From a virus: DNA of 26,694 nt. Of the stretch, positions 7,764 through 26,694 are shown piece by piece (the first letter of the stretch is position 1; each line of letters starts with the position of its first letter). The stretch lies in IMG/VR virus record IMGVR_UViG_3300030106_001964, positions 1-26,694 of that record; one strand, given 5' to 3'. Made by a program: the position numbers and the translations under genes. Below the pieces are notes generated by a model. The model did no database searches. It saw only the letters and a program-made list of their open reading frames with translations, and was not told the origin of the DNA.

Positions 7764-9626
7764 ATGTCTAATCCTGATGCAAAACTTTTAAAGTTTGATT
7801 TTAAACAAGGCTTTCATAGAGAGTCTACACAATATGCTGAAGAAGGTAAATGGTATGATGGTGATAGAGTACGTTTTAGAGCCGGTAAACCAGAAGTAAT
7901 CAGAGGTTATGAAACAAAAGTTAGTGCTACCTTTGATGGTAATGCAAGAGATTTAGTAACTTGGAGAGATAATAGAAGATTAAAACGAGCTGCTTTTGGA
8001 ACAGAAAAAAAATTATTTGAACATAATGGAGATTTAATATATGATATTACTCCAGTATCTGTATCAGTAACAGTTTCAAATGCATTTAGTGTAGCATTAA
8101 GTGCTAACGTAGTTACAGTTTCAGCAACAGCACATGGAAGAGCAACAGGTGATTTTGTATTTTTTACAAGTTCTCCAACAATAGGTGGAAATATATTGCT
8201 AGGTACTTCTACTTATGCAGTAAGTGTTATTAATGCTAATACATTTGCTATTGATGTAGCTACAACTGCAAGTGCTGCTCAATCTAGTGGTGGTCAAGCA
8301 ACCTGTCATTTTTTAATAGCAACAGGAGCTGCCGAAGCTGTTGCAGGTTTAGGTTATGGTGCAGGTTCTTTTAATGCAGGAGTATGTGCTGCAGGAGAAA
8401 GAGGATGGAATCAACCAACATCAACAGGTGCTAGTGATTTTATTAGTGAAATAACACAATGGAGTTTAGATAACTGGGGTGAAGATGTTGTTGCTGTACG
8501 AAGAGGTGGAACTATTTATCAATATGATACTGATGCTTCTGCAACACCAGAACGAGCAACAAGAGTGTCTGGTGCTACAAACTCAACACCAACAACTGTA
8601 AACTCTATTATTGTATCACCAAATGATAGACATTTAATTTGTTTAGGTAGTAATCAATTTAATACTACAGCATCACCAACAGGAACTTTTGATCCTATGA
8701 CTGTGCGTTGGTCTAATCAAGAAGACTTTACAAACTGGGTTCCAAGTGTAAGTTCAACATCTGGTGAAACTGTATTAACAGATGGAACAAAAATAGTTGG
8801 TGCTGTTAGAGGTAGAAATGCTATTAATATATGGACAGATAATTCATTATGGTTAATGGAATTTGTTGGGCCACCTTTTACTTTTAAGTTTAGACAAGTA
8901 GGTAGTAATTGTGGTATGATAGCAGCACATGCTGGTGTTGATTATAATGGTATTTCATATTGGATGGGTGATGAAAACTTTTATGCATTTGATGGTCAGG
9001 TAAGAACATTACCAGCTACAATACGTAGATATATTTTTGATGATTTAAATTATGATGTAAAAGATAAAGTATTTGCTGGTATTAATTCAGAGTTTAAAGA
9101 AATTATTTGGTTATATCCATCAAAAAAATCTAATGATTGTGATAGTTATATTTTATATTCACCTGAAGAAGATTATTGGACTTATGGTACTGGTATCTTT
9201 ACAACCTTTGCAGATAGAACAGTATTTGGAAATACAATAACAACAGGAACTACTGCTGCTGGTAGTCAAATATATAATAATGAACCGGTATCTATTTATA
9301 CAGCTAATGGACAACCACAATCTTCATTTATAGAGTCAGCAGATTTTGATTTAGATGAGGGTAATGAATTAATATTTATGGATAAATTAATACCTGATTT
9401 TGATATTAGTACAGGAAATATACAATTTAGTGTAAAAACAAAACGATATCCTGAAAGTAGTGAGGTAGTAGAAAAAGGTCCATTTACTATTAGTAATACA
9501 ACAGAAAAAGTAAGTATGCGTGCTAGAGGAAGGCAAGCTAAAATCAGGGTATCTTGTAATTCAACAAATACAAAGTGGAGATGGGGTTCACTACGTATGG
9601 CTTTACAAAAAGATGGTGGGAGATAA
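7764..9626 (+). CDS. P22 gp10-like tail hub / packaged-DNA stabilization protein
   Basis: This 620-aa protein has an AGGTGA ribosome-binding site. The N-terminus (FKQGFHRESTQYAEEGKWYD, then GDRVRFRAGKPEVIRGYE) is the recognisable opening of gp10-like hubs, which close the portal channel after packaging and anchor the tail apparatus. P22 gp10 is about 470 aa. The extra length includes a ~100-residue insert at roughly 105-205 (VVTVSATAHGRATGDFVFF, then ANTFAIDVATTASA), a small beta domain common in marine phage hubs. Conserved blocks such as LICLGSN, VRWSNQEDFTNW and SLWLMEFVGPPFTFKFRQVG follow. The position after fibers and before the ejection-type proteins parallels the P22 order. The next gene starts inside its stop codon (TAATG). 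Confidence 0.8.
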   Translation: MSNPDAKLLKFDFKQGFHRESTQYAEEGKWYDGDRVRFRAGKPEVIRGYETKVSATFDGNARDLVTWRDNRRLKRAAFGTEKKLFEHNGDLIYDITPVSVSVTVSNAFSVALSANVVTVSATAHGRATGDFVFFTSSPTIGGNILLGTSTYAVSVINANTFAIDVATTASAAQSSGGQATCHFLIATGAAEAVAGLGYGAGSFNAGVCAAGERGWNQPTSTGASDFISEITQWSLDNWGEDVVAVRRGGTIYQYDTDASATPERATRVSGATNSTPTTVNSIIVSPNDRHLICLGSNQFNTTASPTGTFDPMTVRWSNQEDFTNWVPSVSSTSGETVLTDGTKIVGAVRGRNAINIWTDNSLWLMEFVGPPFTFKFRQVGSNCGMIAAHAGVDYNGISYWMGDENFYAFDGQVRTLPATIRRYIFDDLNYDVKDKVFAGINSEFKEIIWLYPSKKSNDCDSYILYSPEEDYWTYGTGIFTTFADRTVFGNTITTGTTAAGSQIYNNEPVSIYTANGQPQSSFIESADFDLDEGNELIFMDKLIPDFDISTGNIQFSVKTKRYPESSEVVEKGPFTISNTTEKVSMRARGRQAKIRVSCNSTNTKWRWGSLRMALQKDGGR

Positions 9627-13646: not shown

Positions 13647-16600
13647 ATGGATTATAATTCTTTACTTCGAGATGATGCTTTTTTAAATGATGCTTATAAA
13701 TCATTAACTTCTTTAGGCTATCAAGTTAGCACTAGAAGAGGTGATATACTTAATAAGTTTTTACAAAATAGAAGATACTTTGAAACAAATCTTGCATCCA
13801 CAATAACACAAGGTGGAAACATTAAAGATTTAGATGATGTAAATAAACAAAGATTTGCAAGAGCATTAAATAAAGTAGAACAATTACCTTCTATATTTTC
13901 TTCTGGAAGTGCACCTAAATGGAAAGCTTTAAAAGACTATGCTATTGCTGGTGTATCCGATCCCACTAATTTATTATCTATTATTGCTGGTGCTTTTACA
14001 CTTGGCAGTGGTAGTGCTGTGGGCTTTGGTGCAAAGGAAGCAGCTAAACAAGGTACTAAAGCTGCATTAAAAGCTAAATGGAAATTACTAGGTACAAAAC
14101 CTGTTTTAAAAGCTATGGCAGTAGAGGGAACTATTGCTGGTGCTGGTGGTGCTGAACAAGCTAGACGTTCTCAACAGACTGATATGGAATTAGGAAGAAG
14201 AGAAAAAGGAGATTATGATGCAGGTCAAATTGCATTACAAGCTTTATTAGAAGGTGTTGGTAGTCCGGCATTTGGTGCTGGAATTAATCTAGGTGGCACT
14301 GCTTCACGATTAGGTATTGAAAAACTTGGTGATGTTTCTGGAATTAATAATAGTCAATTTGCAAAAAATACACAACACTTTTTAGAAAAATGGTTTATGC
14401 CTGCTGCTGGTTTAGATGAAACCAGTTTACGTAATATTGAAATGAGTCAAGGTGAATTTAAAACTATTAAAGCACAGGCTGAAGATGTGTCAGAAGATAT
14501 TGATTCAGCTTTTAATAGAGATTTTAAAAATTCAGAAGAAGAATTTTTTATAGAAGATAGAAGTAAATTTGCAGATCTAGATGCAGATGAACCTTATGCA
14601 GGAGGAAAAACAGTAAATAGTATTGATTTAATTAATTCTGCTATGGAAGGTGACCAAGCTGCTTTGGATATTGTTAAAACAAGAAGTCCAGATATGGCAA
14701 CTGCATTAGAAAAATTTAGAGGATTAGAAAAACAAATCAGAGCTAAAATAAAAACAGATGACAGAGGTATGAGTGATGTACTTAAAAACATTTTTAAAAA
14801 ACAAACAACTTATACAAGAAATGTTATGGCTAAATATACTCAAGCACAAAGAGAACCTTTACAAGAATTTTTAAAAAAAAATCCAGAAGTATTTCCAGAA
14901 TTTAAAAAACTTTTATTAGATGAAGATTCGCTTGAGCAAGCACAAAGTCTTGGATTAAAAGATATAGATGGTAATTTAATTGGAGATGAAATATTAAGAG
15001 ATAAAATAATTCAAACAGAATTAAAAAATCAATATGATCCTAAACTAGCTAATAAAAGTAGATTTGGTACATTAAAAAGTAGGAATGATGGATGGCCTGA
15101 TGTATTAAAAAAGATATGGGGATTCAATGTTAATCCAGCAATTAGAGCTACACAAACTATAGCTGGTATTTTAGAACCTATTGCTGATTTACGAATGGCA
15201 TCTGGTCTTGCTAGTAGTTTAGAGAGTAGAGGATTAGCATTTGTTGCTAATAGTGCAGAAGAAGCTGCTGCTAAATCTGGTGATCCTAATGCTAGGTTTG
15301 TTCCTTTAATATCTAACAAAGCTGAAATTAGTAAACAACAATATAAGGAAACTCCTTTTAGTGTTCGTGGTGATATTTACAGTGATGACTTAAGAAAAGT
15401 ATATGTAGATGCACGAACAGCAGATAAGATTAAAGTTATGACAGATAGAACTGGCTTTCTTTCAAAGAATGAATTTTTAGGTCCGTTTGCTCAAGCTTTT
15501 GCTGCAGCTCAAGGTTACATGAAAAAAGGTAAAACAGTATATAGTGGTTTTGCTCATGCAAGAAATTTATTAGGTGCATTGCAAAGTGTTGCAGCATCTG
15601 GTAATTACAGAGGTATTGGACAATTAGCAAAAAATGTTCTTAAATTATCTAAAACTGAACGAGATTCTTTCTTTGAAAAAATGAATGACCTTGGTGTATC
15701 TGGAACTAATGTTGAATTAAATCAAATTATGACAAGGTTATCTGATCTTGGTGATATTAGTGAAGATAATTTAAAAGGTTTATCTGGATGGATGGCAAGA
15801 AATATAGTTCGAGGTACTTCACTTGGAATAAGTTCTCTTGAAAAAACAAAGTATGGTAGAAAAACAGCAAGAGCTTTAGAAAAATTATATACAAAAACTG
15901 ATGACTTTGGTAAAGCAATGACTTTTCTTTCTGAAAGAGATAAAGCACAAAAAATGTTTGATGAAATGACACCAGAACAACAAGTTAAGTTTAGAGATCA
16001 ATACTCTGAAGCTTTTGCAGATAGGCTACCTCAAGTAAAACCACCCTCTCCTTCACAAGCTATACGTATGATAGGAGGTACAGAGATTAATATTAAAAAA
16101 GAATTTATTGATGGTACAAAAATTAGAAACATCACACCAAAAAGAATTTCAAAATTAAAAAATAAATTTGAAGCTGATTATCAAAAGAGATTAAAAGAAT
16201 ATGATTCTAAATTATTAGATGAATTTGCTTCTGAAAAAACTTTAAATGTTATGCCTGTATATTCACGTATACCACGTATATTAGAAAAAATGAGAGGCAT
16301 ACCTGTTATTGGTTCTTTTACTGCTTTTCCTGCAGAGAACTTACGTAATAAATATAATGTTCTTAAACTTGGTGCTTTTGAAATAAGAGATGGTTTTGAA
16401 ATTGGTAATAGTGCACTGATTAAAACTGGTGCTAATAGATTATTATCACAAGGAACTGTAGCATCAGCACCTATTGCAGCTGCTTATGTATATAATGAAG
16501 TTAATGATACTGATAAAGTAATGCCGTTTGTTAGAGAATCTTTTCCAGAGTGGGCAAGATATCATGCATTACAAATTAGAAAACTTAAAAACAAAGAAGG

Positions 16601-17618
16601 TGAAGATGAATATGGTGTAACAGATTTAAGTTATAATAATCCAGATCAATTTGTTTTAGATATTGTAAGTCCATTAATGGTTGCTGCTGCTAATGGAGAA
16701 GATGTTTCTGAAAATTTAGATAAATTATTTAAAGATGTAATTGTAGGTGTATCACAACCTTTTGTAGATAAGTCTCTTGCATTACAATTTGGTGAACAAA
16801 TGTTAGGTTTTATTAGATCTGATAATCCACAAATTGCTTCTGAATATTTAGCTAAAGCTTATAAAATAGCTGAACCTGGAGTAATAAAAAATTTAAGAGA
16901 AATGGCTGGAGATGCAGGAGCTTATCAAACTATTGATAAATTATATCAAAAAGTTGGTGATGCAACACCAGGTTCTTTTATTCAATCTAGATTAGAACCT
17001 TTATATTATGGAGAAAAAAGAAGATACTTGAAAGATGCAACAAGCACAGCTGGATATTTAGCTGAATCAGGATTAGTTGGTAATAATATAATGTTTCCAT
17101 ATAATGTAGCAACTAGAGAAACACTTTTAAATCCAAAAAAACAATTAGGATTTGCTGTTAAAACATTAATGGGTAGTGCAAATTCTAATTTTAATATTAA
17201 TTCTAGAGAAATTAAAAAAAGACTACAAGATACTCAAGCTAATTTTACATTAAAAGGAATGTTAGATTTATATAAAGAAGCATTAGAAGAACAATATGTT
17301 GCTCAACAAGGTATTCACAAATTAGTTAATACACTATCTGCTTTTACACCAAGACATGAAATAATTAAAATGTTACGTAGTAAAAAAATTAAACAAGCTG
17401 GAGGTTTATCAGATAGAGAAATATTAAATATTGTTGATGGTAGATTTGTTGCTCCACAATTTGATAAGTCTTTCTTAAAAAGTTTAAAAAGATCTCATCC
17501 TGAAATTAGAGATAGCATACCTTACATAGGCTCACAATTTATGAAACTATTTGGTTTATATAATAATGTACCTTTATTAGAAGAAGTACCAGACATAACA
17601 ATAGAAAGAGAAAAGTAA
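13647..17618 (+). CDS. Very large internal virion/ejection-type protein (1323 aa)
   Basis: This is the largest gene of the window, with AGGA upstream of the ATG. Its length is close to T7 gp16 (about 1320 aa), the internal core protein that enters the host with the DNA, and it occupies the same last place in a row of three. Unlike T7 gp16 I see no N-terminal transglycosylase motif; a lytic domain is instead on a separate protein at 18223. A Gly/Ala-rich stretch near residues 90-175 (SIIAGAFTLGSGSAVGFGAK and AVEGTIAGAGGAEQ) could be membrane-active. Much of the rest is charged and helical. No database family is claimed; the ejection role is inferred from size, order and composition. Confidence 0.6.
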   Translation: MDYNSLLRDDAFLNDAYKSLTSLGYQVSTRRGDILNKFLQNRRYFETNLASTITQGGNIKDLDDVNKQRFARALNKVEQLPSIFSSGSAPKWKALKDYAIAGVSDPTNLLSIIAGAFTLGSGSAVGFGAKEAAKQGTKAALKAKWKLLGTKPVLKAMAVEGTIAGAGGAEQARRSQQTDMELGRREKGDYDAGQIALQALLEGVGSPAFGAGINLGGTASRLGIEKLGDVSGINNSQFAKNTQHFLEKWFMPAAGLDETSLRNIEMSQGEFKTIKAQAEDVSEDIDSAFNRDFKNSEEEFFIEDRSKFADLDADEPYAGGKTVNSIDLINSAMEGDQAALDIVKTRSPDMATALEKFRGLEKQIRAKIKTDDRGMSDVLKNIFKKQTTYTRNVMAKYTQAQREPLQEFLKKNPEVFPEFKKLLLDEDSLEQAQSLGLKDIDGNLIGDEILRDKIIQTELKNQYDPKLANKSRFGTLKSRNDGWPDVLKKIWGFNVNPAIRATQTIAGILEPIADLRMASGLASSLESRGLAFVANSAEEAAAKSGDPNARFVPLISNKAEISKQQYKETPFSVRGDIYSDDLRKVYVDARTADKIKVMTDRTGFLSKNEFLGPFAQAFAAAQGYMKKGKTVYSGFAHARNLLGALQSVAASGNYRGIGQLAKNVLKLSKTERDSFFEKMNDLGVSGTNVELNQIMTRLSDLGDISEDNLKGLSGWMARNIVRGTSLGISSLEKTKYGRKTARALEKLYTKTDDFGKAMTFLSERDKAQKMFDEMTPEQQVKFRDQYSEAFADRLPQVKPPSPSQAIRMIGGTEINIKKEFIDGTKIRNITPKRISKLKNKFEADYQKRLKEYDSKLLDEFASEKTLNVMPVYSRIPRILEKMRGIPVIGSFTAFPAENLRNKYNVLKLGAFEIRDGFEIGNSALIKTGANRLLSQGTVASAPIAAAYVYNEVNDTDKVMPFVRESFPEWARYHALQIRKLKNKEGEDEYGVTDLSYNNPDQFVLDIVSPLMVAAANGEDVSENLDKLFKDVIVGVSQPFVDKSLALQFGEQMLGFIRSDNPQIASEYLAKAYKIAEPGVIKNLREMAGDAGAYQTIDKLYQKVGDATPGSFIQSRLEPLYYGEKRRYLKDATSTAGYLAESGLVGNNIMFPYNVATRETLLNPKKQLGFAVKTLMGSANSNFNINSREIKKRLQDTQANFTLKGMLDLYKEALEEQYVAQQGIHKLVNTLSAFTPRHEIIKMLRSKKIKQAGGLSDREILNIVDGRFVAPQFDKSFLKSLKRSHPEIRDSIPYIGSQFMKLFGLYNNVPLLEEVPDITIEREK

Positions 17619-20752: not shown

Positions 20753-20964
20753 TTTGTTTGTCCTTCCTTTGGAAATTTTATTTTACTAAACCATTCTTCA
20801 TAACTCTTTGGTACCCATATATTATACTTAATACCAGAGCCATCATTGTCTTTACTTGTTGGACTGTTTTTAAACTTTAATCGCATTTGATTACACGAGT
20901 ATTGATTATACATATCCCATAGAGGTTTGTCTATACTAACTTCAACTACAAATTTTTTCTTCAC
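20749..20964 (-). CDS. 71-aa hypothetical protein (GTG start)
   Basis: The start codon is GTG, overlapping the holin stop as GTGA, with no clear ribosome-binding site, so translation is probably coupled to the holin. The sequence (MKKKFVVEVSIDKPLWDMYN, QYSCNQMRLKF, then GIKYNIWVPKSYEEWFSKIKF) suggests a small alpha/beta protein with two short strands near the start. There is no signal peptide or TM segment. It lies between the holin and a single-TM mini-protein. No family is recognised. Confidence 0.6.
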   Translation of the reverse strand: MKKKFVVEVSIDKPLWDMYNQYSCNQMRLKFKNSPTSKDNDGSGIKYNIWVPKSYEEWFSKIKFPKEGQTK

Positions 20965-21359
20965 TTTGTAATTTTTTTGTACTTCTCAAATGTACGTAGA
21001 CCACCAAGCCCTAGCATACCCATTAACACAGTCATTAAACTACCCATGTCAAACTCTGGCAATGGTGGTATTGTTGCACCAAATATTGCTGCAAAAAAAA
21101 TAATAAACGGAGCTAAAACAAAGTGCCACACCATTGCAACTCCACATCCCCAACCTATGAAGGGTCGCCAGCCGGCAACAAATATATTTCTAGATTGTGC
21201 TTCTGCTTTATTTATTTCTAATTGTCCTTTCGCTAATTCTTGTGCATGTTTCTCTGCCATTGTAGCGACTTCGTGAGCAAGTTTATTCTTTGCATCTTTA
21301 TCTTCTACAAACTTACCTATTAACTTTGTGGCAGGTCCTATTAAACCTAATAACGCCAT
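20961..21359 (-). CDS. Holin of the three-TM (GTA_holin_3TM) type
   Basis: This 132-aa protein has an N-terminal amphipathic/charged helix (residues 10-55, with ELAKGQLEINKAEAQS). The hallmark NIFVAGWRPFIGW at 58-70 follows. Hydrophobic segments lie at about 66-94 (GVAMVWHFVLAPFIIFFAAIFG) and 105-122 (MGSLMTVLMGMLGLGGLR), and the end is basic (FEKYKKITK). The (F)VAGWRPFIGW motif after a KAEA helix is diagnostic for the holin family first described in gene-transfer-agent release. It should form lesions in the cytoplasmic membrane at lysis. AAAGGA lies at the end of the upstream methyltransferase gene. No endolysin gene is adjacent on this strand. Confidence 0.85.
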   Translation of the reverse strand: MALLGLIGPATKLIGKFVEDKDAKNKLAHEVATMAEKHAQELAKGQLEINKAEAQSRNIFVAGWRPFIGWGCGVAMVWHFVLAPFIIFFAAIFGATIPPLPEFDMGSLMTVLMGMLGLGGLRTFEKYKKITK

Positions 21360-21360
21360 A

Positions 21361-22029
21361 TCATTTCCTTTCTATTGTTTTATATACTGTAAGTGATTGA
21401 GGGTTTTCTGCATCCTCATCTTTAATAATATCTAAACTATAATGAATATTTAAATGTGAATATTTATTATGTAACTTTAATAATTTTTCTTTCCAGTAAC
21501 TCGGTTGCTTTACATTAACATGTAAGTTTCTACCATCTTCAAATTTTTTTAAAGCTTTATAACAAGCTATGGTTACAAATACAAATTTTCTAGCATAAGA
21601 AAATATTTCATCAAGAATCCAGTCAACATCTTTTTCATCTATATGTTCTATAACATCTGTACAAATAACAGCATCATATTTTCCCTTTGGTAGTTTACTG
21701 TATTTTTCATATGCTGGATCATATAATGAGAAGTAATCTAACTGCCAAAGTTTTGACAAAGGTTTAGGTAAAACCTGTCCGTTCTCATCTATTGGCATCT
21801 CTTTATATTTCATGTCATCATATAACAATGCTTTGCCACAACCATAATCTAATAAACTTTTTACACCTTCAAGTAACATAAGCTTTGTTAATCTTTCTAT
21901 ATGAACAGCTAATGAAATACCATTAAAAAAAGCATTTCCTGGTCTATCTTTTAAACCTTTTGTATGTAGTATTTGATATTGTGTTACAAGTTCTTTGTAA
22001 TCTTGTGATGGATTTTCTCTATTGTACAT
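21361..22029 (-). CDS. Class I SAM-dependent methyltransferase
   Basis: This 222-aa protein has a Rossmann-type methyltransferase core. Motif I is SLLDYGCGKA at 58-67, YDPAYEKY at 103-110 is an acidic/aromatic region at the usual motif II place, and CTDVIEHI is at 123-130. The beta4 to alpha region continues with DVDWILDEIFSYARKFVFVTI. The DVIEH signature is that of small-molecule or glycan methyltransferases rather than DNA methyltransferases; there is no (D/N)PPY motif. Its start overlaps the end of the 767-aa sugar-transfer gene by 11 bp, so a role in methylating the same glycan product is the simplest reading. The substrate is not known. Confidence 0.75.
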   Translation of the reverse strand: MYNRENPSQDYKELVTQYQILHTKGLKDRPGNAFFNGISLAVHIERLTKLMLLEGVKSLLDYGCGKALLYDDMKYKEMPIDENGQVLPKPLSKLWQLDYFSLYDPAYEKYSKLPKGKYDAVICTDVIEHIDEKDVDWILDEIFSYARKFVFVTIACYKALKKFEDGRNLHVNVKQPSYWKEKLLKLHNKYSHLNIHYSLDIIKDEDAENPQSLTVYKTIERK

Positions 22030-24322
22030 TTAATAATTTCCTATAACTCGGTAAGGTTTGTCTCTTAACTGCCTGTTCCCAGATAGCAGAAACTAAACTA
22101 TTCTTACCATAAAAATGAAAGTTAATACCCATAGAACTATCAGCAAAAGTTTTTTCACAATCTTGTGCCATTGCTAATAACTCTCCTGTTGTCCAAAAAG
22201 ATTGTTCTTCAAGAGATACTTGAAAATACTTTGGTCTTTTAGGTTCATCATCAGCACCAGTAGTTTCTTTTTTCATAGCTTCTGTTGGTTCAGATGCTAA
22301 AGAACATTCAAAACCAAATAGATGAATAGATCTAAAACCTATAGTATGTAACATTCCTATTGCTCTCATAGCTGCACAAGTGCCACCAGTAATTAATGTA
22401 GCACCAGCAGGTAAACCAATATCATCTCTAATTTTAACTTGATTATTTCTGATAACTGTTTTACGTTCTTCATCATCTCGTAATGATTCTGAAAAGGCAT
22501 GCCATCCCCATATGTCAGCTTTCTTTTCTATAAGATAATTTGTAACAGAAGGATCAGTCATAGACGCAACTAAAAATTTTGTTTCTGGAACTATATCTTT
22601 TAATAAATCTTTTCTTTTTATTCCATGTGTACTTTCACCATCAATAGAACGAGGATCTAAAAGAATACAAGAGTTTGGTTTAATACCATTCTTTATTAAA
22701 TTAGGATAAGCATGTTTAACACATATAGTAAAAGCATTAGGATATTTTTTCATAGTTTCTTTTAATTCAGTATAATCCATGTTAGGCCCACCAGAAATAA
22801 CTATGGCATGCTCATCATGTATCCTACATTTATCTATAAATTTATTCTTGTCTATTAATTTTAAATTATCTTTAATATTATTTCTAATATAATCTTTTGG
22901 AACACAATCTCTTGGGTTCACTACAATAGGAACTCTTTTTAAATCAGCTGGAATATCATCTAATTTTTTATCATTAAGAAGAATCATTAAATGAGTAAAG
23001 CCACCATTTAAAACTTTATCACCGGAAGGTAAAATATTTTTTCTAATTTCTTTATTACCTTTTAAACTATCCCATACTTTATTAACACCTTGATATGCTT
23101 CATTAGGTTCTAGCTTATCATCATCTTGTCTGAAGTAATGGTCAAGCATAATGATAGGAGTTTTCTTTACACATTCATAATCATGAGCAACAGTTTTAAT
23201 ACTATTACCACCACCTATAAATGCCATATCAAACCACTCACCCTGATCTTTTAAGGTTTCTCTTGTATTACCTTTGTGTAATTCAAATATAAAATTTTTA
23301 TTTTTATTTTCTTTTACATGTTCTGCAAATTCTTTTAATCTATTTTGAACAGCTGATAATTTATTGTGTGCTTTACCATTAAACTCTTCAAGGTCAGTTT
23401 GAACTGTTGCATCTTCAAATAAATCATAACCATAATAAGTAAAGGTATTAGAATATTCAAATGCAGTTAATGCCATTTCAATAGCTCTTCCACCATTCCA
23501 TGTACCAGTTTCAATTACAGATGTTGGTTTATATTTTTTCATTATCTGTACAATTTGTTGATATCTATTTGGTTTAATGTCTGGCGATACATTATCTGAT
23601 AAAGGAAATACTCTGTCTCCTTTTTCATTTCTAATTGCAACTTTTGAAAAATCTGGATTACCTCTAAAGTGATAGAAGTAATCATAAATAGCTGGTACCT
23701 TTTCAATTTTCATACCATGTGCTTGATATATATTTAATAGTCTTTCTAAAACATAATAGTCATGCCACTCTCTATACTTTGTAACTTCTCCTAATATAAA
23801 AGCACCACGTAAATCAGCAAGAATATCTATGGCTGGTTGTTTATCTAAATTAAATGCCATAAAGAAAGGTTCTTCTGGATTATAAATAATATCTACTTTA
23901 TCATTTAACATAGATAAAATATTTTCTTTAGTTAATCTCTTTTGCAAATAAGAATCTATATCAATCCATATCAGCCAACCTGCCTGTTTATTTTTTTCAA
24001 TTAAAGAGAAAGCTTCTTCAGTTAAAGCAAAAACTTTATGACTCCATCTTAATGCATCTAACTTATCGTTGTATGCTATCTGTCCATTCTCTGTCCCATC
24101 ATGATCTTTATATCTTTCTAAAAAATCTTGGTGTTCTTTTACTTTATGTAAATCTTTATAAGTAAATTCTGGTAAAGAATAAGCATCTAATTTACAATCA
24201 TGATGATAACAAGTTAAATTAATACTGCTTTCTAAATTTTCTTTAATTGATTTTAATAAATGTATTCCTGTAGTTTTTAATAATGTTTCATTAAATGAAG
24301 TAACAAAATTAATCTTTGTCAT
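22019..24322 (-). CDS. Three-domain glycan-modification protein: glycosyltransferase-like + methyltransferase-like + DUF115/Maf-like
   Basis: I chose ATG 24322 (767 aa), with GGAG six bases upstream, over the in-frame TTG at 24334. Residues 1-225 resemble a family A glycosyltransferase: TKINFVTSFNE opening and WIDIDSYL at 119-126 with the Asp121-x-Asp123 metal motif. Residues 250-450 resemble class I methyltransferases of the Methyltransf_24 type: SVIETGTWNGGRA (268-280), YYGYDLFED (296-304), MAFIGGGN (366-373), IIMLDHYF (390-397). Residues 505-765 match DUF115/MptE-like proteins related to the Maf glycosyltransferases of flagellin glycosylation: AIVISGGPNMD (506-516), CVKHAYPNLIKNGIKPNS (534-551), LLDPRS, and GGTCAAMRAIGMLHTIGFRS (646-665). 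All domain calls are by eye. One chain carrying all three suggests stepwise building of a decorated sugar. Confidence 0.7.
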   Translation of the reverse strand: MTKINFVTSFNETLLKTTGIHLLKSIKENLESSINLTCYHHDCKLDAYSLPEFTYKDLHKVKEHQDFLERYKDHDGTENGQIAYNDKLDALRWSHKVFALTEEAFSLIEKNKQAGWLIWIDIDSYLQKRLTKENILSMLNDKVDIIYNPEEPFFMAFNLDKQPAIDILADLRGAFILGEVTKYREWHDYYVLERLLNIYQAHGMKIEKVPAIYDYFYHFRGNPDFSKVAIRNEKGDRVFPLSDNVSPDIKPNRYQQIVQIMKKYKPTSVIETGTWNGGRAIEMALTAFEYSNTFTYYGYDLFEDATVQTDLEEFNGKAHNKLSAVQNRLKEFAEHVKENKNKNFIFELHKGNTRETLKDQGEWFDMAFIGGGNSIKTVAHDYECVKKTPIIMLDHYFRQDDDKLEPNEAYQGVNKVWDSLKGNKEIRKNILPSGDKVLNGGFTHLMILLNDKKLDDIPADLKRVPIVVNPRDCVPKDYIRNNIKDNLKLIDKNKFIDKCRIHDEHAIVISGGPNMDYTELKETMKKYPNAFTICVKHAYPNLIKNGIKPNSCILLDPRSIDGESTHGIKRKDLLKDIVPETKFLVASMTDPSVTNYLIEKKADIWGWHAFSESLRDDEERKTVIRNNQVKIRDDIGLPAGATLITGGTCAAMRAIGMLHTIGFRSIHLFGFECSLASEPTEAMKKETTGADDEPKRPKYFQVSLEEQSFWTTGELLAMAQDCEKTFADSSMGINFHFYGKNSLVSAIWEQAVKRQTLPSYRKLLNVQ

Positions 24323-24536
24323 TAAAGTCTCCAAAGTTTTTTTCTAATCTTTCTAAAGCTTCCTCTGCTTCAGATAATTGTTTTAATAATACAACAGAAT
24401 CATCTACTATTTTTGGATGCTCTCCTATTGCTACTGGATTTTGAAAAGCTAAATCAAGTTGATACAATGCTTTAGTTCTTTCACCTTCATAGTAAGCCTG
24501 CATGGCTTTATATAAAGTATAATTTAATTTTCTCAT
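24309..24536 (-). CDS. 75-aa conserved small protein linking two sugar-transfer genes
   Basis: I chose the ATG at 24536, which overlaps the stop of the glycosyltransferase gene as ATGA. A longer in-frame start at 24587 lies inside that gene. The sequence MRKLNYTLYKAMQAYYEGER, then ALYQLDLAFQNPVAIGEHPK, VVLLKQLSEAEEALERLEKN is helical, resembling a TPR-like hairpin plus a coil. I recall similar short proteins with the YEGE and NPVAIGEH blocks beside glycosyltransferase-like genes in marine phages. It overlaps the next gene by 14 bp. It is plausibly an adaptor or chaperone for the enzymes on either side; no activity is evident. Confidence 0.6.
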   Translation of the reverse strand: MRKLNYTLYKAMQAYYEGERTKALYQLDLAFQNPVAIGEHPKIVDDSVVLLKQLSEAEEALERLEKNFGDFNDKD

Positions 24537-25324
24537 GTTATTAAATAATCTTCCTCTCTTGAAATAATACCTTTCATTTGTAACCATCTAGCATCTTCGC
24601 ACCACTTGACAGCATACTTCCCTTCTTCTTCTCCTCTCGGTTTCCAATTAGAAAACCAAGGGCCACCTGTTGTAAAATGAACAATTTTTGGTTTCATATC
24701 TACTGGTGAATGACCATCAAGCCAGTTCCACTCTTCCGGTATTTGTCCTATATCAGACTCTTCATCAGGCAACCATTTGAATGTGTGCAACCACCTACCT
24801 CTTTCTGTGTTTATAGCATTAATACTTAACTTATCTAAATAGTGATGTTCATTATTAAACATCATAAGACTAGACCAATTCTTCATACGATAAGGTTCTT
24901 GTGCTTGGCCATCCATTTTAATACCTTTTTCTACTTCATACTTATGGTGTACTGTCCAAACAGGATAATAATTATCCCTACACATATCAAATAATTCATT
25001 TATATTTGCAAAACAATACATATCACAATCTAAATATAAAGACATACCAGTATATAAATTTAAATGTGGTACAAGAAATCTAGTAAAACTAAAATCAGTA
25101 GAGAAAGGTTTGCCATCTATCTCATCATACTGTTGATTACCTATTTTATTAGACCTTCTTCTAAACATACCATTTTTAATTAACGCATCTTTTTTAAGAG
25201 GCACTATTCTTACAGGATGCTTTGCTCTTATCTCTATAGAAAATTTTAATACCTCATAAGCTACATGTTCTCTAGGATCATAACCAATATAAACTGTGTC
25301 CATATCTTTTCTAATTTGTTTCAT
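24533..25324 (-). CDS. GT8-like glycosyltransferase
   Basis: I placed the start at ATG 25324 (263 aa), one base after the stop of the secreted-protein gene. A longer frame to 25396 overlaps that gene and is less likely; ATG 25303 is a further option. The protein opens VYIGYDPREHVAYEVLKFSI (11-30), has STDFSFTRFLVP (75-86), then the metal-binding MSLYLDCDMYC (94-104; Asp99, Asp101) and KIVHFTTGGPW (213-223). These are the landmarks of GT8-type nucleotide-sugar transferases: the D-x-D strand and a late His strand. It would transfer a sugar to an unknown acceptor. The acceptor may be a virion protein, host surface glycan or small molecule. Neighbouring methyltransferase and DUF115 domains support a glycan pathway. 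Confidence 0.8.
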   Translation of the reverse strand: MKQIRKDMDTVYIGYDPREHVAYEVLKFSIEIRAKHPVRIVPLKKDALIKNGMFRRRSNKIGNQQYDEIDGKPFSTDFSFTRFLVPHLNLYTGMSLYLDCDMYCFANINELFDMCRDNYYPVWTVHHKYEVEKGIKMDGQAQEPYRMKNWSSLMMFNNEHHYLDKLSINAINTERGRWLHTFKWLPDEESDIGQIPEEWNWLDGHSPVDMKPKIVHFTTGGPWFSNWKPRGEEEGKYAVKWCEDARWLQMKGIISREEDYLIT

Positions 25325-25325
25325 A

Positions 25326-25586
25326 CTAAAATTTCCATTCGTAATCAATAAAAAATGTTCCTGCTTCAAACCCCTGCCCAAGTCTTTTTCTTTCATATGC
25401 TATTTTTAATTTGTCATCATTAGCTAAATTTTTAGTAGCATAACTTCTAAATTTAGAACCATCATGTTCATTATCTAGATCATGATAATATCTATACCCC
25501 ACAGAATCAAACCAAGCATCTGCTTTAACTGTGGTAGTTAATAATGTAAATCCAAATAATGTTGTGAATAATAATATATATTTCAT
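25326..25586 (-). CDS. Small exported protein with beta-rich C-terminus ending in Phe
   Basis: This 86-aa protein has a Sec signal, MKYILLFTTLFGFTLLTTTV-KA, with cleavage likely after VKA, leaving ~63 mature residues. The mature part (WFDSVGYRYYHDLDNEHDGS, then KLKIAYERKRLGQGFEAGTF, FIDYEWKF) has alternating aromatic/polar strands and a C-terminal Phe. That resembles the last strands and beta-signal of outer-membrane proteins, although it is far too short for a full barrel. AAGGACAAGGA precedes the ATG, and the start overlaps the upstream mini-gene as ATGA. Its first six residues equal those of the secreted protein at 6525. Outer-membrane or periplasmic action in the host is inferred. Confidence 0.65.
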   Translation of the reverse strand: MKYILLFTTLFGFTLLTTTVKADAWFDSVGYRYYHDLDNEHDGSKFRSYATKNLANDDKLKIAYERKRLGQGFEAGTFFIDYEWKF

Positions 25587-25772: not shown

Positions 25773-26183
25773 TTATTTTATTTGTATCTTTCTTGGTTTC
25801 TTTTCTTCTGGTATAATTTGTTTTAATTTTATTTCTAAAATCCCATGAAGAAAAGTACAACCTTCTACATGTAACGTATCAGCAAGAACAAACTGTCTTT
25901 CAAATACTCTTTTGCCAATACCTCTATGCAAATATTCTAAATCATCTTCTTTATCAGAAGACTCCCCTTTTATTGTTAATTTATTTTCTTTTACTTGTAC
26001 ATCAAGTTCTTTTTCTTTAAACCCAGCTAATGCAAATTGTAAAAGATATGTATCTTCTTTATCTTTAATTAAATTATATGGTGGATATCCAATATCACCC
26101 ACGTTATTATTTAACATTGAATTAAACAAGTTATCAAAACCAATAGCTTGTCTAGTTATATTATCTAAATTAAATGTAACCAT
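25773..26183 (-). CDS. hsp20: Small heat-shock protein (Hsp20/IbpA family)
   Basis: I chose ATG 26183 (136 aa), which has AAGGAG seven bases upstream; a longer frame to 26270 lies in the 5' untranslated region. The protein holds an alpha-crystallin domain from about 33 to 125: YPPYNLIKDKEDTYLLQFAL, then ALAGFKEKELDVQVKENKLT, RGIGKRVFERQFVLAD (88-102), and the closing HGILEIKL strand (114-121, the NGVL position). The C-terminus IIPEEKKPRKIQIK is typical of bacterial and cyanophage homologues and includes an IxI-like tail. It is an ATP-independent holdase expected to protect phage or host proteins during infection or virion assembly. It has its own promoter and terminator, so it can be expressed separately from its neighbours. 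Confidence 0.9.
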   Translation of the reverse strand: MVTFNLDNITRQAIGFDNLFNSMLNNNVGDIGYPPYNLIKDKEDTYLLQFALAGFKEKELDVQVKENKLTIKGESSDKEDDLEYLHRGIGKRVFERQFVLADTLHVEGCTFLHGILEIKLKQIIPEEKKPRKIQIK

Positions 26184-26326: not shown

Positions 26327-26694
26327 TTATATATCTACTAACTCACAAGATCCTGCTTTACATGCTAACTCTTGTGAACCCCTTGTATTATCTTCTGATT
26401 CATACTCTTTTAATTTATTCCAATCAATATTTGTAGGCATTTTAGATTGTAAATTTTTATATTGCATCTCATCTATATCTTGATAAGGTGCTTGCTGATA
26501 TGTATGGTCAGAGAAAGGTAAGAAGGATATACCAGATAGTGTATCAAAATTATCCCAGCACCAGTTACCTACATTAATCCATTCATGTTCTTTAACAGAT
26601 ATAGTTACTGATGGTTTATGTTCACACCAATGCTGTGCATAACACTTCCATATCTCTAACTGTTCAATAGCAGTCATAGTATATCTAAAAATAG
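26327..26694 (-). CDS. nrdJ: Class II (B12-dependent) ribonucleotide reductase, C-terminal end (5' part outside window)
   Basis: The frame stays open to the window edge (IFRYT before the internal Met at 26677), so about 120 C-terminal residues are present of a protein usually several hundred residues long. TAIEQLEIWKCYAQHWCEHKP, then SVTISVKEHEW, GISFLPFSDHTYQQAPYQDI and a final ACKAGSCELVDI match the end of adenosylcobalamin-dependent ribonucleoside-triphosphate reductases found in marine podoviruses. The closing Cys-x4-Cys is the redox-active pair that re-reduces the active site. The enzyme makes deoxynucleotides for phage DNA synthesis. It is transcribed toward hsp20, and only T-rich sequence without a hairpin follows its stop. 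Confidence 0.85.
   Translation of the reverse strand, partial: IFRYTMTAIEQLEIWKCYAQHWCEHKPSVTISVKEHEWINVGNWCWDNFDTLSGISFLPFSDHTYQQAPYQDIDEMQYKNLQSKMPTNIDWNKLKEYESEDNTRGSQELACKAGSCELVDI

Follow-up and report, generated by a model that had tools for sequence, protein, structure and literature searches.

A block of overlapping genes on the minus strand of the viral record IMGVR_UViG_3300030106_001964 encodes a GT8-like glycosyltransferase, a 75 amino acid protein, a three-domain fusion protein and a stand-alone S-adenosylmethionine (SAM) methyltransferase, here called MTase2. The window analysed is the complete IMG/VR record (26,694 bases, 31.6% G+C), which comes from an uncultured, probably marine phage. 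The block is a real, widespread and uncharacterised variant of the phage glycosylation cassettes. The strongest new facts are a natural series of split, intact and altered forms of the fusion, and the coincidence, on one branch of the tree, of the loss of a putative metal site in the fused methyltransferase with the appearance of MTase2. We give an even chance to the reading that the cassette modifies glycans, is most likely expressed late and acts on virion proteins, the fused methyltransferase having been displaced. Few bacteriophage systems are known in which glycosylation of the virion has been demonstrated.

The GT8-like glycosyltransferase (263 amino acids; 24533–25324, minus strand, as for all genes of the block; phrog_28018, E=1.5e-51) is followed by the 75 amino acid protein (24309–24536), which matches phrog_1811, a family without functional annotation, by the fusion (767 amino acids; 22019–24322) and by MTase2 (222 amino acids; 21361–22029; phrog_24759, E=8.9e-24). 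A check of the open reading frames (ORFs) found the four genes and their successive overlaps of 4, 14 and 11 bp at the places given in a preliminary description of this DNA, along with the claimed D-x-D motifs, at residues 99/101 in the GT8-like protein and 121/123 in the fusion. SAM motifs had been reported in two of the proteins, and both score above the Pfam cut-off: the fusion with Methyltransf_24 (PF13578; residues 270–387, 30.3 bits against 26.3) and MTase2 with Methyltransf_23 (PF13489; 28.4 bits against 27).

The structure of the fusion was predicted with AlphaFold (AF2) from a 51-sequence alignment (A2), replacing an earlier, poor model built on 16 sequences (pLDDT 66). With a mean pLDDT of 84.7 and a pTM of 0.50, the individual domains of the model appear reliable and their mutual arrangement does not. 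The three folds expected for the chain (GT-A, Rossmann methyltransferase and DUF115) were all recovered by AlphaFold and Foldseek, the latter matching the model to O-methyltransferases, GT-A retaining transferases and the Maf structure 5mu5 in the PDB, where a phmmer search with the full fusion gave no match. Domain 2 (residues 246–460; 22943–23587) has an O-methyltransferase fold, with Foldseek matches to 5n5d, 3tfw and TrmR. Its SAM motif I, E-x-G-x-W-N-x-G (E271, G273, W275, N276 and G278), and D300 are invariant in 51/51 sequences.

The metal site of this domain is altered. Where relatives with an intact site have IDGGHS, the window has FIGGGNS (residues 368–374; 23201–23221), and where they have DD it has D394-H395 (23138–23143). 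Compared with L186, L213, L214 and other intact loci, the altered fusions as a group have changed IDGGHS to IGGGNS and DD to DH or DN. The first Asp is replaced by Gly throughout the A2 alignment (51/51) and in 73 of the 93 sequences of a wider set, while the intact combination IDGGHS..DD is present in 19 fusion relatives. We take the first Asp of IDGGHS (of the COMT Asp141 type) and the DD/DN pair to be the catalytic metal ligands, by analogy with COMT/TylF-type enzymes. Judged from the alignment, the fused domain of the window thus appears to have lost a putative metal-ligand Asp. The preliminary description had proposed that one chain combines all three activities; with the Asp expected to bind metal gone, this is probably wrong for the window phage.

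MTase2 was found near none of the 19 intact-site fusions, and accompanies 63 of the 65 altered-site fusions for which 500 nt or more of sequence is available downstream. A search of the whole records of 12 contigs (intact, partly altered L171 and outgroup) did not find MTase2 either, and the same search recovered it in all six control contigs of the altered class. In a tree of the DUF115 domain only, the altered, MTase2-bearing fusions form one clade (55 rows, SH-aLRT 98), and the altered site maps as a single change when long-branch rows are left out. Loss of the site and appearance of MTase2 therefore fall on the same branch. On the simplest reading, methylation passed to MTase2 and the fused domain would then have been free to decay. 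These loci offer a natural series for catalytic loss in a fused domain after a stand-alone gene appears alongside.

Some observations weigh against displacement. The association between MTase2 gain and site loss amounts to one event; in L171 and L190, the two exceptions, the site is altered in other ways and MTase2 is not present; and L213 holds both an intact fused methyltransferase and an MTase2 homologue. L213 rules out strict mutual exclusivity of the two, and since it holds both, two different methylations are possible and the genes need not be alternatives. A possible, though less probable, account is that nothing was displaced: the fused methyltransferase would be fully active in an altered, possibly metal-independent form, and MTase2 would add a second, different methyl group. 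The invariance of the SAM-binding motif and D300 fits this account, as does L213 with its fused site intact. The Gly at the position we equate with a metal ligand, in all of A2 and in 73 of the 93 wider-set sequences, speaks against it, and so does the timing, the Asp having changed on the very branch where MTase2 appears.

The domains on either side were assigned by different routes. Domain 1 (residues 1–226; 23645–24322) has a GT-A fold, and Foldseek relates it to alpha-1,3-galactosyltransferase (2jcj/5nr9), blood-group GTB and glycogenin (3rmv). Sequence profile searches of the PDB returned spurious matches only, so the assignment relies on the fold match together with the DxD motif (residues 121–123; 23954–23962). 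This motif is kept in the window and in 61 of 93 relatives and lost in the other 32, through three changes on the tree that lie solely inside the altered-site clade. Domain 3 (residues 462–755; 22058–22939) is the C-terminal DUF115 block of the preliminary description: PF01973 (DUF115, now MptE-like) covers residues 481–674 with 59.2 bits against a cut-off of 34.6, is found in 51/51 fusion members (E<=0.01) and marks the most conserved part of the chain. Searched against the PDB by sequence, the DUF115 profile matched only Maf 5mu5, below threshold and in two collinear segments; Foldseek matched the same structure with E=9e-7, and hhalign aligned the domain with a small alphaproteobacterial Maf-like set (95.7%, E=8.7e-9, 165 columns).

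The GT8-like protein matches Pfam GT8 (PF01501) weakly (17.5 bits against a cut-off of 24.3) and the PDB GT8 structure 5gvv weakly as well, and 20 of its 26 relatives match Glyco_transf_8 (E<=0.1; best 3.7e-6). D99 and D101 of its DxD (residues 99–101; 25022–25030) and a C-terminal HFTTGGPWF, of the H-x(2)-G-x(1,2)-PW type, are invariant across these 26 relatives, and the DxD is also invariant in 10 distant phage relatives. Some homologues are longer: those in L198, L201, L202, L205, L208 and L209 have about 555–579 amino acids, with an added C-terminal part of about 330 amino acids, and the one in L208 has no Pfam or PHROG match outside its GT8 part. In Synechococcus phage S-SCSM2R (L052) the GT8 homologue adjoins KdsB and KdsA (Kdo synthesis), a 2-oxoglutarate (2OG) oxygenase and a glycine amidinotransferase.

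The cassette occurs widely among uncultured phages. A tblastn search of 50,697 phage records with the full-length fusion gave no match, so it is absent from the cultured phages of that set. In IMG/VR, a single fusion sequence retrieved 46 loci and the fusion alignment at least 252 confirmed loci among 600 candidates, a lower bound. The only match among 84,980 bacterial and archaeal genomes lies on a phage-like contig binned as Sneathiella; as to the host, the nearest structural relatives infect Pelagibacter, Roseobacter and others. The block is not a chance set of ORFs, since it was found in more than 100 viral contigs. Gene order was scored in loci with enough flanking sequence, many of them close relatives and not independent: GT8 stands immediately upstream of the fusion in 104/104 and MTase2 immediately downstream in 97/97. 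The 75 amino acid gene lies between GT8 and the fusion in 40 loci; 19 others have it at a different upstream position, and in 24 loci with more than 5.5 kb of upstream sequence the search did not find it. It does not belong to the cassette core. Of the co-occurrence of four genes anticipated in related phages, the part concerning GT8, fusion and methyltransferase stands, whereas the idea of a dedicated small partner does not. Interrupted fusion frames were also seen. L002 (2601–4922), whose fusion is 99% identical to that of the window, and L096 (4165–6507) have a mid-frame, in-frame stop, possibly a sequencing error or a split form, and in L040 (62–2282) the frame is divided into two overlapping frames, likely by a frameshift.

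Relatives in which the fusion is split place the genes in several settings. In L186 and L213, domain 1 is encoded apart from a methyltransferase-DUF115 chain, and GT8 is present too; domain 1 is a separate gene in Pelagibacter phage Mosig as well. The L213 set, in the order MTase2, GT8, domain 1 and methyltransferase-DUF115, lies between the terminase large subunit and the portal. An MTase2-GT8 pair in L197 has a major head protein on one side and, on the other, a virion protein that shares a PHROG with the product of window positions 7764–9626. Caulobacter phage CcrColossus carries genes for a PF01973-like protein, GT8 and an MTase2-type enzyme between a tail gene and lysis genes, and in the podovirus ctDrO704 (L050) a GT8/methyltransferase pair lies between capsid and stabilization genes. 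Because split relatives sit among terminase/portal, capsid and tail/lysis genes, we favour glycosylation of virion proteins, and the block of the window lineage continues into the holin and the terminase small subunit. The Ser/Thr-rich fibers had been put forward as acceptors. They do contain 20–23% Ser/Thr, against about 5–14% in most non-structural products, a composition that is compatible with such a role and by itself does not identify an acceptor.

Domain folds, gene order and motif states with their spread over the tree are what the analysis shows; the enzymatic activities, the sequence of reactions, the displacement of the fused methyltransferase and the virion acceptor are inferred. 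Under the virion reading, the GT8-like enzyme would use a nucleotide-sugar donor to transfer a sugar, the DUF115 domain, with its Maf/sialyltransferase-like fold, would add a further or the first sugar to the acceptor, and MTase2 would cap the glycan by methylation. Once MTase2 had been recruited, the fused O-methyltransferase domain of the window lineage would probably serve as a non-catalytic or altered SAM-fold scaffold. The N-terminal GT-A domain keeps its DxD in the window and not in every relative. A search of 14 of the longest relatives found neither NeuB nor a CMP-sugar synthetase (CTP_transf_3), so a nonulosonate donor, as in the chemistry raised by the preliminary description, would be supplied by the host, or the donor would be another sugar. 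Several points count against this reading. In Mosig, Stenotrophomonas phage DLP_6 and L206 the neighbours of the related genes serve nucleotide metabolism or recombination or encode tRNAs, so that the virion-gene setting is not universal; the window block itself comes after ribonucleotide reductase and Hsp20; and the low pTM makes the arrangement of the fusion domains unreliable.

The main rival to virion glycosylation, which we rate as rather unlikely, is that the cassette modifies glycans of the host surface (lipopolysaccharide (LPS), capsule or glycoproteins of the host), one conceivable purpose being to block superinfection. GT8 enzymes often serve LPS synthesis, the cyanophage relative described above adjoins the KdsA and KdsB genes for the LPS sugar Kdo, and the pair of domain-1 and GT8 homologues in Mosig is accompanied by methyltransferases and a sulfotransferase. 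Modification of the host surface gives no reason, however, for relatives placed inside head/packaging and tail-lysis modules. The window lineage looks lytic in type, with a holin and terminase adjoining and no integrase in view, and the neighbourhood of the cassette showed neither flippase nor polymerase genes.

Comparison with known phage systems also bears on the acceptor. The mycobacteriophages Che8 and Rita carry capsid glycans, as cited in PMC11256854, and resemble the system proposed here in using phage-encoded glycosyltransferases, with the virion as proposed target; their capsid glycans are demonstrated, whereas those of the window phage would follow from gene context. CcrColossus and its relatives, DLP_6 and ctDrO704 have a homologous GT8 (33–38% identity) beside an MTase2-type gene. 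In these phages the genes are separate, and neither a three-domain fusion nor Methyltransf_24 joined to PF01973 was seen. CcrColossus gp126 is PF01973-like (31.8 bits against the cut-off of 34.6), with a 24-column match only in profile comparison; gp128, considered as a relative of domain 1, gave no match. In Pelagibacter phage Mosig EXVC030M a GT8 homologue adjoins a homologue of fusion domain 1, as in the cassette, and DUF115 is lacking, with a sulfotransferase and other methyltransferases present instead. A full-length structural match is A0A6J7X5Q0 from an uncultured member of the Caudovirales (E=2e-57, 26% identity), which, like other phage 'MptE-like' entries, carries automatic annotation only. 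No functional description of phage DUF115/MptE-like proteins was found in the openly readable full-text literature. The split, fused-intact and fused-altered versions offer a direct route to testing the step of each enzyme and the nature of the acceptor.

Sugar hypermodification of the bases in phage DNA is a quite improbable function of the cassette. T4 AGT and BGT, which glucosylate DNA, have the GT-B fold, not GT-A or DUF115, and no base-hydroxymethylase was seen beside the cassette, in genomes not annotated throughout for one. The position behind genes for ribonucleotide reductase and a nucleotide kinase-like protein would suit DNA modification, and DNA-modifying phage glycosyltransferases are known (Pyle et al. 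2024, as cited in PMC12619734). A C-terminal domain acting as an MptE-type 6-hydroxymethyl-dihydropterin pyrophosphokinase, with the cassette in pterin or nucleotide metabolism, is very improbable: PF01973 is named MptE-like in Pfam and archaeal control genomes are positive for it, but the sole solved structure matched by sequence, and ranked by Foldseek too, is Maf 5mu5, and the neighbours are glycosyltransferases and methyltransferases, with no pterin genes seen.

We place the phage domain as a member of the DUF115/Maf fold family and not as a Maf. In Maf proteins, PF01973 sits between a degenerate Rossmann-like N-terminal domain, whose resemblance to methyltransferase motifs is weak, and a helical C-terminal domain; these enzymes use CMP-nonulosonates as donors (PMC11339370). 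The PF01973 domain with its Maf/Cst-II-like fold is common to the Maf flagellin glycosyltransferases and the phage fusion, to which the phage chain adds a GT-A domain at its N-terminus and a domain recognisable as an O-methyltransferase. After PF01973 the phage chain has about 80–90 residues of mixed alpha/beta structure, in contrast to the Maf helical bundle (in bacterial Maf-like proteins some 200 residues or more lie beyond PF01973), and neither a flagellin context nor nonulosonate genes were seen with the phage cassette. The Maf N-terminus and the phage methyltransferase domain are comparable in position, with no sequence homology detected (hhalign 0.2%). The assignment follows because PF01973 alone matches, the C-terminus differs and N-terminal homology was not detected. 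As a speculation we consider unlikely, the phage family would show, among present-day sequences, an active O-methyltransferase-DUF115 chain becoming a DUF115 transferase with a dead methyltransferase domain, and the degenerate Rossmann domain of Maf could be a former methyltransferase produced by the same process. If true, this would be a possible explanation for the uncharacterised Maf N-terminal domain.

The surroundings of the cassette are largely constant: DNA polymerase, single-stranded DNA-binding protein (SSB), Cas4-type exonuclease, ribonucleotide reductase and Hsp20 precede it, and the holin, the terminase small subunit and then a convergent structural block follow. The four overlapping genes belong to a longer coupled block than first described. 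One base separates the MTase2 stop from the start of the three-transmembrane (3-TM) holin gene (20961–21359, minus strand; GTA_holin_3TM, E=1.6e-23; phrog_3427), so the transcription unit extends beyond the interval originally outlined, and at the other end an 86 amino acid ORF with a signal-peptide-like start, MKYILLFTTLFGFTLLTTTVKA (25326–25586, minus strand), ends 1 base ahead of the GT8 gene. The family of this ORF occurs near the cassette in 55 loci, in some of them after MTase2 instead. Away from the cassette, a 1323 amino acid ORF at 13647–17618 (plus strand) has no PHROG match, and its only counterpart among phage records is a 17% partial match in Pelagibacter phage HTVC027P. Just upstream of the cassette lies an Hsp20 small heat-shock protein (25773–26180, minus strand; E=1.9e-19), whose family is retained in 53 related loci, and beyond it the C-terminal end of a ribonucleotide reductase (26327–26677, minus strand), cut by the end of the record and of the same family as phrog_367 in L056.

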